This document shows, one piece after another, positions 35,731 to 39,633 of a stretch of 64,000 nucleotides of DNA. Both the position numbers and the translations under genes were made by a program. The number at the start of each line of letters is the position of its first letter. Position 1 is the first letter of the stretch. The notes beneath the pieces are model-generated. The model searched no databases. It worked only from the letters and a program-made list of their open reading frames with translations, and had not been told where the DNA came from. The DNA comes from Agrococcus terreus. Its GTDB lineage: Bacteria > Actinomycetota > Actinomycetes > Actinomycetales > Microbacteriaceae. The stretch spans positions 62,001-126,000 of the forward strand of contig NZ_BMLM01000001.1 in NCBI RefSeq assembly GCF_014645235.1. The letters run 5' to 3'.

Positions 35731-36936
35731 GTGACGGACGAGCGGATGCGCGAGGACGAGGGCCGGATCGGCGACGCGGAGCTCGCCCAGCGCCTCGAGC
35801 GCACGCGCGACCGGATGCGGCACGCGGGCCTCGACGGCCTCGTCGTCGTGGATCCCGCGAACCTCCACTACCTCACCGGCTACGACGCATGGTCGTTCTA
35901 CATGCCGCAGCTGCTGTTCGTGCCGCTCGAGGGCGAGCCGCTGCTCATCATGCGGCAGATGGACGCGGGCGGCGCGCACCGCACCGCGCGCACGCCGCGC
36001 GAGCGCATCCTCGGCTACCCCGAGGCCCTCGTGCACCGCCGCGACGTGCACCCCTTCGACTGGGCCGCGGAGCAGCTGCACGCGCACGGCTTCGGCGGCC
36101 GCGGGCGCATCGGCTACGAGGCGGAGGCGCACTTCCTGTCGGTGCGCTCGTTCCACGCGCTCGAGCGCGGCCTGCCCGAGTGGACGCTCGTCGACTGCCG
36201 CGACCTCGTCAACTGGGTGCGGCTCGTGAAGAGCCCCGCGGAGCTCGTGCTGCTGCGCCGCGCGGGCCTCGTCGCGAGCGCCGCGATGCGCGCGGGCATC
36301 GACGCCGTCGCCGCGGGCGCGCGGCAGAACGACGTCGCCGCGGCGATCCAGCACGCGCAGGCCACGGGCGTCGAGGGCGCCGACGGCGACTACCCGGCGA
36401 TCGTGCCGATGCTGCCCACGGGCGAGTCGGCCGACACCCCGCACATGACCTGGAGCGCGCGCCGGCTCGGCGCCGGCGAGGCCGTCTCGATCGAGCTGGC
36501 CGGCGCGCACCGCCGCTACCACGCGCCGCTCGCGCGCACGATCTCGCTCGGCGTGCCCGACGACCGCCTCCGGGAGCTCGCCGACATCACCGCCGAGGGC
36601 CTCCAGCTCGTGCTCGACGGCCTGCGGCCCGGCCGCGCCGTGGCCGAGGTGCACGCGCTGTGGCGCGACCACATCGCCGCCCACGGCATCGAGAAGCCGA
36701 GCCGACTCGGGTACTCGATCGGCATCGGCTACCCGCCCGACTGGGGCGAGCGCACCGTCTCGATCCGCGGCGACGACGAGACCGTGCTCGAGCCCGGCAT
36801 GGCCTTCCACGTCATCGCCGGCATGTGGATGTCGGGCTACGGCTGCGAGCTGAGCGAATCGGTCGCGCTCCACGACGGCGGCGTCGAGGTGCTCACCGAC
36901 GCGCCGCGCGAGCTCATCGTGCGGGAGGGCGCGTGA
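35731..36936 (+). CDS. doeA: Ectoine hydrolase (DoeA/EutD-like, M24 creatinase-fold)
   Basis: A 401-residue pita-bread-fold enzyme. DPANLHYLTGYDAWSFYMPQ, GYPEALVHRRDVHP, NWVRLVKSPAELVLLRRA, GADGDYPAIVPMLPTG and IGYPPDWGERTVSIR match what I know of DoeA/EutD, which opens ectoine to N-acetyl-diaminobutyrate, better than ordinary Xaa-Pro peptidases. The two Asp metal ligands of M24 peptidases are missing: the first position is Glu (SIELAG) and the second Pro (RYHAPLART), as in non-metal creatinase-like members. Start is GTG after GAGGGGG. Overlaps the M20 gene by GTGA; a ProP-like permease follows. Family call is recognition-based. Confidence 0.8.
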   Translation: MTDERMREDEGRIGDAELAQRLERTRDRMRHAGLDGLVVVDPANLHYLTGYDAWSFYMPQLLFVPLEGEPLLIMRQMDAGGAHRTARTPRERILGYPEALVHRRDVHPFDWAAEQLHAHGFGGRGRIGYEAEAHFLSVRSFHALERGLPEWTLVDCRDLVNWVRLVKSPAELVLLRRAGLVASAAMRAGIDAVAAGARQNDVAAAIQHAQATGVEGADGDYPAIVPMLPTGESADTPHMTWSARRLGAGEAVSIELAGAHRRYHAPLARTISLGVPDDRLRELADITAEGLQLVLDGLRPGRAVAEVHALWRDHIAAHGIEKPSRLGYSIGIGYPPDWGERTVSIRGDDETVLEPGMAFHVIAGMWMSGYGCELSESVALHDGGVEVLTDAPRELIVREGA

Positions 36937-38138
36937 GCGCCGGCGCGGCGTCCGGCCAGGCGGCGGCCGTCGAGGCGGCGCTCGCCCTCGTCGACGGCGC
37001 GACGATCGTCGCCGACGCCTCCGCGCTCATCCTCGCCGCGAGCGAGAACCCCGGCGGCACCGAGCTGGCGGCGGTCCGGATGCTCGAGACGATCGCCTCG
37101 CGCCTCGGCGGCCGCAGCCGCCGGCAGCTCGTCGCGCCCGGCCGCCCCAACCTCTCGGTGCGCTTCGGGCCCGATCCGAGCGCGGAGGCGCCCGGCGTGC
37201 TCGTGCTCGGCCACAGCGACGTCGTGCCCGCGGGCGATGGCTGGCACGCCGACCCCTTCAGCCCGCGCGTCGCCGACGGCTGGCTCACGGGCCGCGGCGC
37301 CACCGACATGAAGGGCGGCCTGGCCGCCGCGCTGCAGGCGCTCGCCGCCGTGCACCGCGCGCGCCCCGAGCTGCCGCTCGAGCTGCTCGTCACGGTCGAC
37401 GAGGAGGACCTCGCCACCGGCGTGCAGGCGCACCTGGGTGAGCCGCCCTCCCACTACCGGGCCTGCATCGTCGCCGAGCCGACCGACCTCGCCGTCGTCA
37501 TCGCCTGCCGCGGCGCCGCGAACCTGCAGGTCGACGTCGCAGGCCGCGCAGCGCACGCCGGACGGCCCGAGGACGGCGCGAGCGCCATCACCACCGCCGC
37601 GCGCATCGCGACCTGGATCGCCGACGACCACGCGCGGCTCCGCGCCGGCGCCTTCGGCCTGCTCGGCTCCGCCACCTGGAGCGTCGGCCGCATCGAGGGC
37701 GGCCACGGCACCTCGATCGTGCCCGACCGCTGCACGCTGCTCGTCGACCGGCGGCTCATGCCGGGCGAGACGGGCGCGGAGGCGCTCGCCCAGCTCGAGG
37801 CCGGCATCGCCGACGCGCTCGGCGACGGCGGCTGCACCGCGAGCGCCGCGCTCCTCATGGAGATGCCCGGCTTCGAGACCGCGCCCGGGCATCCGCTCGT
37901 GGCCGCCGCGGTCGACGCGCTCGCCGCGGAGGGCCGCGAGGCGCCCGTCGAGGCGTGGACCGCGGCGTGCGAGGGCGGCTTCATCGCCCGCCACCACGGC
38001 TGCCCGACGGTCATCCTCGGCCCGGGCGACATCACCGGCCAGGCCCACCAGCCCGACGAGCGCGTGCGCATCGACGACCTCGAGGCCGCCGCGCGCGCCT
38101 ACGTCCGCATGGCCCTCGCCCTCCACGACGCCGGCTGA
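36933..38138 (+). CDS. M20-family deacetylase (ArgE/DapE-like), probable N-acetyl-diaminobutyrate deacetylase
   Basis: A 401-residue di-zinc amidohydrolase. Ligands appear as His-x-Asp in LGHSDVVPAG, Asp in RGATDMKGG, the Glu pair in VDEEDLA, an acid in VAEPTDL and His in GQAHQPDE; the dimerisation domain holds AAHAGRPEDGASAI. It resembles acetylornithine deacetylase. Acetylornithine and N-acetyl-diaminobutyrate (product of ectoine hydrolase) differ by one carbon. With the DoeA-type gene overlapping upstream, it may replace the usual DoeB/EutE deacetylase, which belongs to a different family. Substrate is inference. Confidence 0.85.
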   Translation: MSAGAASGQAAAVEAALALVDGATIVADASALILAASENPGGTELAAVRMLETIASRLGGRSRRQLVAPGRPNLSVRFGPDPSAEAPGVLVLGHSDVVPAGDGWHADPFSPRVADGWLTGRGATDMKGGLAAALQALAAVHRARPELPLELLVTVDEEDLATGVQAHLGEPPSHYRACIVAEPTDLAVVIACRGAANLQVDVAGRAAHAGRPEDGASAITTAARIATWIADDHARLRAGAFGLLGSATWSVGRIEGGHGTSIVPDRCTLLVDRRLMPGETGAEALAQLEAGIADALGDGGCTASAALLMEMPGFETAPGHPLVAAAVDALAAEGREAPVEAWTAACEGGFIARHHGCPTVILGPGDITGQAHQPDERVRIDDLEAAARAYVRMALALHDAG

Positions 38139-38208
38139 GCCGCACGCCACACCGACCCCATCCCGCATCCCTGCACGACGCACGACCCCGACACCGGAAG
38201 GTACGGCC

Positions 38209-39633
38209 ATGACCGAGCAGCACGCCCCCGCAGCCCCCGACGGGGGCCTCCCGCCCATCACCCGCGAGCACGACCTCTCGCCCATCCAGCGCAAGACCGT
38301 GAAGAAGTCCGTCATGGGCGCGATGGCCGGCAACGCCATCGAGTGGTTCGACTACGGCATCTACGGCTACCTGGCCGTGCACCTCTCGAACCAGATCTTC
38401 GGCGGCACCGAGGACGCCATCCTCTGGACGCTCTTCGGCTTCGCGATCTCGTTCCTCGTGCGCCCCCTCGGCGGCGCGATCCTCGGCCCGCTCGGCGACC
38501 GCATCGGGCGCCAGAAGGTGCTCGTCTTCACCATCCTGATGATCTCGCTCGCCACCGCGGCGATCGGCCTCATCCCCACCTACGAGCAGGCGGGCTGGCT
38601 CGCGCCGGCGCTGCTGTTCCTGCTGCGCATCATCCAGGGCTTCTCTGCCGGCGGCGAGTACGCCGGCGCCGCGGTCTACATGGCCGAGCACGCGCCCGAC
38701 GACCGCCGCGGCTTCTGGGGCTCGTTCCTCGAGTTCGGCACCCTGCTCGGCTTCTCGGCCGCAGCGATCCTCGTCACCGCGATGGAGACGATCCTGGGCC
38801 CGGATGCGATGGAGGCCGGCTGGTGGCGCCTGCCGTTCCTGCTCACCCTGCCGCTCGGCCTCGTCGCCCTCGCGATGCGCGCCCGCCTCCACGACCCGGA
38901 GACCTTCACCGAGGCGAAGCAGCAGGACACCCGCACGAGCGCCTGGCAGACGCTGCGCGACCTCGTCACCCAGCAGCCGAAGCAGCTGCTGAAGATCATG
39001 GGCATCACGATCCTCATCAACACGGCCTTCTACCTCGTGCTGACCTACATGCCCACGTTCCTCACCACCTCGCTCGACATGGATGCGACGCAGGCGGGCC
39101 TCATGCTCGTCGGCGTCCAGCTCGTGATGATGGCGGTGATCGTGCCGCTCGGCGCGCTCACCGACCGGATCGGCAGGCGGCCGCTGCTGCTCACCGCGGC
39201 CATCGGCTTCACGCTGTTCTCGGTGCCCGCGATCATGCTGCTCAACACGGGCGTCGTCGCGCTGCAGGTGCTGGGTCTCGCGATCTTCGGCCTGTTCCTC
39301 GTCATGCTGCTGTGCAACATCTCGGCCTCGCTGCCGGCGCTGTTCCCCACGACCGTCCGCTACGCGGGCTTCGCGCTCGGCTACAACGTCGCCACGTCGC
39401 TGCTCGGCGGGCCCGCGGGCCTCATCAACGAGGCGCTCATCGACAGCACGGGCTCGACGCTGGTGCCGGGCTTCTACATGACGGTCGCCGGCATCATCGG
39501 CCTCGTCGCGATCCTCACCTTCAACGAGACGGCCGGCCGGAGCCTCCGCGGCGACCGCGTGCCGGGCGACGACGACCGCGACCGGATCGCCGTGGGCGAG
39601 ACGCTCATCGGGAAGGTCACCAAGGAGCGGTGA
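38209..39633 (+). CDS. MHS-family osmolyte permease, ProP-like
   Basis: A 474-residue, 12-helix major facilitator. SVMGAMAGNAIEWFDYGIYGYLAV, PLGDRIGRQKVLVFTIL and RIIQGFSAGGEYAGAAVYMAEHAP are characteristic of the ProP/MHS group; ProP carries proline, betaine and ectoine with protons. The C-terminal soluble tail (about 40 residues) lacks an obvious coiled coil, unlike E. coli ProP. It is 70 bp downstream of the M20 gene, preceded by GGAAGG, and completes an uptake-plus-breakdown unit with the ectoine hydrolase. Substrate inferred from context. Confidence 0.85.
   Translation: MTEQHAPAAPDGGLPPITREHDLSPIQRKTVKKSVMGAMAGNAIEWFDYGIYGYLAVHLSNQIFGGTEDAILWTLFGFAISFLVRPLGGAILGPLGDRIGRQKVLVFTILMISLATAAIGLIPTYEQAGWLAPALLFLLRIIQGFSAGGEYAGAAVYMAEHAPDDRRGFWGSFLEFGTLLGFSAAAILVTAMETILGPDAMEAGWWRLPFLLTLPLGLVALAMRARLHDPETFTEAKQQDTRTSAWQTLRDLVTQQPKQLLKIMGITILINTAFYLVLTYMPTFLTTSLDMDATQAGLMLVGVQLVMMAVIVPLGALTDRIGRRPLLLTAAIGFTLFSVPAIMLLNTGVVALQVLGLAIFGLFLVMLLCNISASLPALFPTTVRYAGFALGYNVATSLLGGPAGLINEALIDSTGSTLVPGFYMTVAGIIGLVAILTFNETAGRSLRGDRVPGDDDRDRIAVGETLIGKVTKER

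Follow-up and report, generated by a model that had tools for sequence, protein, structure and literature searches.

A three-gene unit of Agrococcus terreus probably encodes the uptake of ectoine and its conversion to diaminobutyrate by a hydrolase related to DoeA and a deacetylase of the ArgE/DapE branch. The unit (positions 35731-39633; Table 1) lies within a 64,000-nt stretch, here called the window, which corresponds to positions 62,001-126,000 of the forward strand of contig NZ_BMLM01000001.1 (assembly GCF_014645235.1). It comprises the genes of an M24/creatinase-family protein, an M20 protein and a permease of the major facilitator superfamily (MFS), all on the + strand, with the permease gene starting 70 bases past the M20 stop codon. 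A preliminary description had named these three genes, the GTGA overlap between the first two and two M24 motifs (GADGDYPAIVP and GYPPDWGERT), all of which we confirmed in the sequence. The overlap suggests translational coupling of M24 and M20. In the reading that we consider best, and likely, an M24 hydrolase from a lineage sister to DoeA turns ectoine into N-acetyl-diaminobutyrate, from which the M20 enzyme produces diaminobutyrate. We infer that the ProP-like permease would import ectoine, that the M24 hydrolase would open its ring to give N-alpha-acetyl-L-2,4-diaminobutyrate, presumably via the conserved Glu255, that the two-metal site of the M20 enzyme would remove the acetyl group to release acetate and diaminobutyrate, and that an unlinked transaminase and semialdehyde dehydrogenase would then take diaminobutyrate to aspartate. 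No match to ectoine synthase was found in the 2.83 Mb host genome (the gene is present in 3 of 24 Agrococcus genomes), which makes imported ectoine the likely substrate.

Table 1. Features discussed in the text (window positions, except in the last row, which refers to the host genome).
Feature	Coordinates	Strand	Basis
M24/creatinase-family protein, DoeA/EutD-like, without metal ligands, 401 aa, GTG start	35731..36936	+	PDB match, TIGR02993, residues, trees
Glu255 codon of M24 gene	36493..36495	+	Alignment
GTGA overlap (M20 GTG start inside M24 TGA stop)	36933..36936	+	Sequence
M20 metallo-deacetylase (proposed), ArgE/DapE branch, 401 aa	36933..38138	+	TIGR01892/TIGR01910, Pfam, active-site residues, clade
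ProP-like MFS permease, possible ectoine/proline-type symporter, 474 aa	38209..39633	+	ProP model, TIGR00883
AstE/AspA-type protein	G000:C1:990071-991027 (L007:10071-11027)		Sole DoeB-model match of host genome (at G000:C1:990164-991012), 110 bits

The M24 protein resembled DoeA and lacked the metal site of M24 peptidases. Its closest PDB match was DoeA (6twk, 311 bits), while the best prolidase scored 91 bits, and its identity to the listed annotated DoeA proteins was 39-43%. With the DoeA_2 model (NF038259, cut-off 575 bits), it scored 224 bits and thus fell below the cut-off. None of the five peptidase metal ligands (D, D, H, E, E) was kept in the alignment, which confirmed these residues at the ligand positions of PepQ. 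The window protein carries E255, P266, Y328, I362 and S375 at these positions, compared with E, P, Y, M and T in the four plasmid-borne DoeA proteins and E, A, Y, I/L and S in four DoeA_2 proteins. The full set of ligands was present in E. coli PepQ and YpdF as well as in the host genome's own aminopeptidase P-like protein. Because all five ligands are replaced, the M24 protein should not act as a metallopeptidase of the Xaa-Pro type. Position 255, which has the same number in 6twk (counted along the PDB-match alignment), was Glu in 31/31 DoeA-like rows and Asp in the three peptidases of the same alignment; this Glu reportedly forms the covalent intermediate of EutD (Mais et al. 2020). Four further residues (W54, T85, H107 and N161) occurred in every row of five groups (DoeA, actinobacterial, bacillar, archaeal and Shinella) but seldom in the outer group. 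As this outer group includes DoeA_2 proteins (L074 scored above the cut-off), the contrast is not one of ectoine versus non-ectoine enzymes, and such a residue test is a weak guide to DoeA specificity. The predicted structure of the M24 protein had a mean predicted local distance difference test score of 80 (low at approximately 232-239 and 326-343), and that of the M20 protein had a mean score of 91.

Phylogenetic analysis of the M24 family was carried out on 36 rows, including five peptidase-type outgroup rows, two of which resemble methionine aminopeptidases preceded by unrelated sequence, and on the 34 rows that remain without these two. In the 36-row tree, the five peptidase-type rows formed one side (support 100/98). 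The window protein grouped in a 22-row DoeA side, apart from DoeA_2 and the peptidases, with support of 92/95 (36 rows) and 91/98 (34 rows). This side takes in proteobacterial DoeA, proteins from Bacillota and Haloarchaea and one Shinella protein in addition to the window protein. The actinobacterial M24 clade was supported at 100/98 in the 36-row tree and at 100/99 in another tree, and it appears to be a sister lineage to proteobacterial DoeA rather than nested inside it.

The M20 protein contains Peptidase_M20 and dimer domains (Pfam), and its predicted catalytic site is complete. The residues of the two-metal site and the general base (H94, D96, D125, E157, E158, E182 and H372) were invariant in 14 cluster-borne M20 proteins and common to the window M20, E. 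coli ArgE and DapE. S261, M309, W342 and C346 were likewise invariant in the 14 cluster proteins, while N, P/A, V and T occupy these positions in two ArgE proteins and DapE also differs; this divergence would fit a changed substrate. In a 51-row tree, 34 cluster-borne M20 proteins formed one clade (99/99), although the cluster rows had been selected for their likeness to two members, a choice that makes a common group more likely. By tree path, the nearest protein to this clade was a Pantoea M20, followed by ArgE and DapE, and the M20D proteins were far from it. By its placement, we regard the window M20 as part of a clade of its own, close to the ArgE/DapE branch. M20D proteins matching the DoeB2 model aligned only partly to the window M20 (E value of 5e-6 or worse), and the DoeB2 model (NF038260, cut-off 550) was not among the best 25 of 57 matches of the M20 protein, the 25th scoring 68 bits. 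The possibility that the gene is simply the ArgE of the host was ruled out, as a separate ArgE scoring above the cut-off (363.7 bits) is encoded elsewhere in the genome.

The M24-M20 pair occurs in many Actinomycetota families. By the M24 gene, the closest named relatives belong to Agrococcus (best 80 of 595 loci), and the gene (E up to 1e-50) was present in 22 of the 23 other Agrococcus genomes searched, the exception being a genome that is 65% complete. At all 22 loci an M20 gene lies downstream of M24 on the same strand, either directly (19 loci) or past a transaminase gene (3 loci), and an MFS gene comes next in 18. To obtain a wider set, we took the best 80 loci and set aside 9 from Bacillota. 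Of the remaining 71, 69 are Actinomycetota by name, L097 (titled Kocuria) mapped elsewhere and one is unmapped; L078 to L081 are also Agrococcus, and at least L078 duplicates a genome already counted. M20 was found on the same strand up to 3.5 kb downstream of M24 in 55 of the 71 loci (12 directly, 43 past a transaminase gene named AT1) and within 9.5 kb in 59. Among 119 related genomes, the M24 clade was detected in 28 (at least 442 bits) and the M20 clade in 26 (at least 469 bits; the score below these was 247), each of them also M24-positive. Since 23 of these 26 genomes come from one genus, they represent few independent cases. The distances between M24 proteins and those between M20 proteins were correlated over 62 loci (r = 0.84, with no species-tree control; 2000 permutations reached at most 0.16), and the nearest neighbour was identical for both proteins in 40 of these loci.

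AT1, as in L089:11200-12426, is a fold-I transaminase; the one member scanned resembled the aminotransferase portion of MocR-type regulators. Its gene stands directly after M24 in 50 of the 71 loci and 3 of the 22 other Agrococcus loci. The position of this gene between M24 and M20 in 43 loci bears on a different order of steps, in which transamination and oxidation would first turn the M24 product into N-alpha-acetyl-aspartate, by analogy with ornithine and arginine metabolism, leaving the M20 enzyme as an aspartoacylase analogue. An alternative route via N-acetyl-aspartate was raised by Schwibbert et al. (2011; PMC3187862). In addition, the one class III transaminase of the clusters that was scanned also gave a sub-cut-off match to a family model for acetylornithine transaminase. 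However, M24 and M20 stand without an intervening transaminase at 19 of the 22 loci from other Agrococcus genomes, and the nearest characterised kin of the M20 enzyme, ArgE, uses a basic acyl amino acid. Hence, we consider this acetylated route improbable.

We also searched for the classical deacetylase, DoeB. With four proteobacterial queries (tblastn, E up to 1e-6), DoeB was found beside none of the 112 loci L046 to L157, while the four plasmid loci annotated with doeB were detected. The DoeB model (TIGR02994, cut-off 402.7) was not exceeded in any of the 119 related genomes; weak matches of 82-110 bits were observed in 15 of them, including the host. The host match, an AstE/AspA-type protein (Table 1), might in principle do the deacetylation and leave another role to the M20 enzyme, and among NCBIfam models (E up to 1e-15) it matches that of DoeB alone. 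Yet its score is far under the cut-off, a RimK-type gene adjoins its gene, and its distribution is patchy with respect to the M24-M20 pair. Indeed, of the 22 pair-bearing genomes from the rest of the genus, 9 lack the weak match, six of the nine being at least 99% complete, and it is present in a genome (G088) that has no M24 match (E up to 1e-50). Distribution and neighbouring genes thus led us to reject a hidden DoeB, and a deacetylating role for the AstE/AspA-type protein seems very unlikely.

The link to ectoine comes from the permease and from genes near M24 in other genomes. Kinship of the permease to ProP and to metabolite:H+ symporters is clear at the level of protein models, and ProP of C. 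glutamicum is a high-affinity carrier for proline and ectoine (PMC6397837). Within 9.5 kb of M24 (at least 150 bits), the 71 loci contained genes for an SSADH-like dehydrogenase (40 loci), a ProP-like permease (34), a class III transaminase (33), a protein of the EutA/arylmalonate decarboxylase kind (23) and EhuB (5, with L106 just out of range). Two of the EutA-kind genes were scanned and reached 101 and 71 bits (EutA cut-off of 318). EhuB scored above its ectoine-specific cut-off in 5/5 loci tested (L085, L106, L108, L116 and L146), as did EhuC in the one tested. In the host genome, an SSADH-like gene stands after each of two class III transaminase genes, the two encoded proteins sharing 53% and 49% identity with the cluster dehydrogenase, and these two unlinked pairs could carry diaminobutyrate on to aspartate.

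Two other genes were frequent near the pair, coding for a D-2-hydroxyacid dehydrogenase (39/71) and a large flavin adenine dinucleotide (FAD)/Fe-S dehydrogenase (36/71), for example in L084, L088 and L098, and both were also seen in two haloarchaeal clusters. Neither enzyme has a place in the doeABCD route. Along with an amidase (21/71), these classically unneeded genes would suit a pair that performs the same chemistry on another compound, either a cyclic amidine or an amino acid with an acyl group, such as chiefly 5-hydroxyectoine or an unknown substance. The varied settings of DoeA-like M24 genes, which include peptide ATP-binding cassette (ABC) transporters, mandelate racemase/DHDPS and a histone-deacetylase-like gene, point the same way. 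Nevertheless, the EhuB and EhuC scores in the larger clusters and the residues W54, T85, H107 and N161 shared with DoeA speak for ectoine, and we regard a different main substrate as unlikely.

Several observations weigh against the assignment of the unit to ectoine breakdown. First, all three proteins score below the cut-offs of the relevant models: the M24 protein with DoeA (TIGR02993 equivalog, 369.2 vs 613 bits), the M20 protein with ArgE (TIGR01892 equivalog, 200.6 vs 297.7 bits) and with ArgE/DapE (TIGR01910, 190.4 vs 217.6 bits), and the permease with ProP (NF007927, 366 vs 544 bits) and with the metabolite:H+ symporters (TIGR00883, 355 vs 443 bits). The window M24 matches 118 of 195 DoeA-invariant columns; among the 64 columns whose residue is rare in the outer group, however, it matches only 16. 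An M20 of the window's clade was not seen in the stretch examined at 12 of the 71 loci, six of them from Brevibacterium, although three of the 12 (L118, L121 and L123) stop 55, 1370 and 2245 bases past the end of M24. The loci with EhuB belong to other species, and no Ehu was found in the Agrococcus neighbourhoods searched. The transaminase and dehydrogenase genes lie outside the operon, and no biochemical substrate test of an M24-M20 pair was found in the literature searched. Lastly, approximately unbiased (AU) tests did not reject a grouping of the actinobacterial M24 clade with the peptidases (p of 0.154 with the 36 rows, 0.089 with the 34 rows and 0.169 in a further test). Because of this result the M24 tree is by itself not decisive, and the metal ligands weigh more. 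M24 and M20 being peptidase families, the AU tests would also allow a peptide-use operon, in which an Xaa-Pro dipeptidase and an M20 aminoacylase would work with a permease for peptides or proline. With all five ligands replaced and a score of 311 bits for DoeA against 91 for the best prolidase, such an operon is hardly credible, and on the ligands we reject the peptidase reading of M24 even with that grouping unrejected.

These results refine what the preliminary description had claimed. It called the M24 protein DoeA/EutD-type, which holds for its likeness to DoeA and for the lost peptidase ligands and is qualified by its score and its apparent position as a sister lineage. A tree against DoeA and peptidases had been named beforehand as a check; it placed the protein on the DoeA side and, by the AU tests, left the peptidase side unrejected. 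The label ArgE-like fits the M20 protein as to its ArgE/DapE branch, but not as ArgE itself, given its score, its distinct clade and the true ArgE elsewhere in the genome. Similarly, an operon for uptake and breakdown is retained for uptake and the first two steps, whereas further steps are not found in it.

The doeABCD pathway was laid out by Schwibbert et al. (2011), who also noted DoeA homologues without doeB (PMC3187862). The unit described here shares with DoeA-DoeB/EutD-EutE of Halomonas elongata and Ruegeria pomeroyi a metal-ligand-free M24 hydrolase, a deacetylase gene next to it and a tie to ectoine uptake. It differs in that its M24 protein appears to form a sister lineage to DoeA/EutD and in that DoeB belongs to the AstE/AspA group, which is M14-related (PMC3187862), while the window has an M20 protein. 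In Methylotuvimicrobium alcaliphilum, a doeB mutant shows N-alpha-acetyl-diaminobutyrate after osmotic down-shock, and the DoeB proteins of this species and H. elongata share 22% identity; a Tsukamurella cluster is mentioned in the same paper (Reshetnikov et al., 2020; PMC7192451). A second pair, DoeA_2/DoeB2 (NCBIfam NF038259 and NF038260), probably corresponds to the M. alcaliphilum doeBDAC type. It also belongs to the ectoine pathway and DoeB2 is related to M20D amidohydrolases, unlike the window M20 with its ArgE/DapE branch; three M20D-type proteins that we scanned matched the DoeB2 model, all below the cut-off. DoeB2 was not found in the ectoine literature among the matches listed. With ArgE (acetylornithine deacetylase), the window M20 shares the family, the metal and base residues and the dimer domain, and it differs by an identity of 32-33% and at the four cluster-invariant residues.

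A survey that required adjacent eutD and eutE retrieved 363 genomes, all proteobacterial (PMC8739950). More recently, tentative eut clusters were described in Bacillota, Actinomycetota and Halobacteria (PMC13188858, 2026). These clusters resemble the present unit in having a EutD homologue and an MFS or other transporter, eutE being absent in the Bacillaceae examined, and the Gram-positive ones are marked by an abgB amidohydrolase of unproven role (PMC13188858). An ArgE/DapE-type M20 or a deacetylase assignment for this step was not found in section 8 and the other passages of that paper covered here. Among the matches listed, no title or abstract opening claimed an ArgE/DapE-type M20 as ectoine-pathway deacetylase either. 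Hence, the novelty for actinobacterial ectoine catabolism proposed at the outset is reduced by these published clusters to the ArgE/DapE-branch variant, which was not found in the text covered. The proposed replacement of DoeB by an M20 enzyme keeps its footing in the constant M24 partner and in the lack of DoeB at the loci searched. However, the principle is not new: a swap of this kind is already known from DoeB2, and the present one looks like another, separate case.

Other arrangements were observed around DoeA-like M24 genes. The Brevibacterium-type loci (L071, L072, L114, L115, L118, L123, L137 and L141) have M24 with no M20 seen; in seven that were mapped, an AsnC-like gene lies near M24 in six and a permease-like gene in six (named by eye). 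Two genomes of this type (G095 and G111) have ectoine synthase and therefore may recycle their own ectoine via another deacetylase. In Alkalibacillus/Allobacillus (L149, L151, L152 and L154), the order is PucR-M24-CGS with an M20 gene upstream; the M20 proteins of L149, L151 and L154 fell neither with M20D nor in the window's clade, possibly reflecting a further M20 recruitment. A Shinella plasmid carries, in this order, a gene of a pyridoxal phosphate (PLP)-dependent aminotransferase family, EutA (305 bits, cut-off 318), M24 and an M20D-type amidohydrolase. Two haloarchaeal plasmids combine M24 and an amidohydrolase (M20D-type in the one scanned) with FAD/Fe-S and D-2-hydroxyacid dehydrogenases and a transaminase. 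On plasmid pShin-02 of Shinella sp. HZN7 (L170:3965-6224), a class II histone deacetylase-type gene stands immediately downstream of a DoeA-like M24 gene; an aldehyde dehydrogenase and a FAD oxidoreductase come next, and an ABC transporter lies upstream. This is perhaps another hydrolase-deacetylase pairing with yet another deacetylase fold.

A broader proposal, which we put forward tentatively and as the less probable outcome, is that metal-ligand-free ring hydrolases of the creatinase type have been paired repeatedly with unrelated or distant deacetylases (AstE/AspA, M20D, M20 of the ArgE/DapE branch and perhaps the histone-deacetylase type). The Actinomycetota pairing would then have arisen once, spread with M24, and would serve a distinct ectoine/hydroxyectoine pathway with its own AT1 and hydroxyacid dehydrogenases, being no simple copy of doeABCD. 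Ectoine is a nutrient for many bacteria. If the reading of the A. terreus unit as a route from ectoine to diaminobutyrate is true, the M24-M20 pair would add many Actinomycetota to the ectoine users, give annotators a recognisable gene pair and offer a clean case of the repeated replacement of one pathway step.

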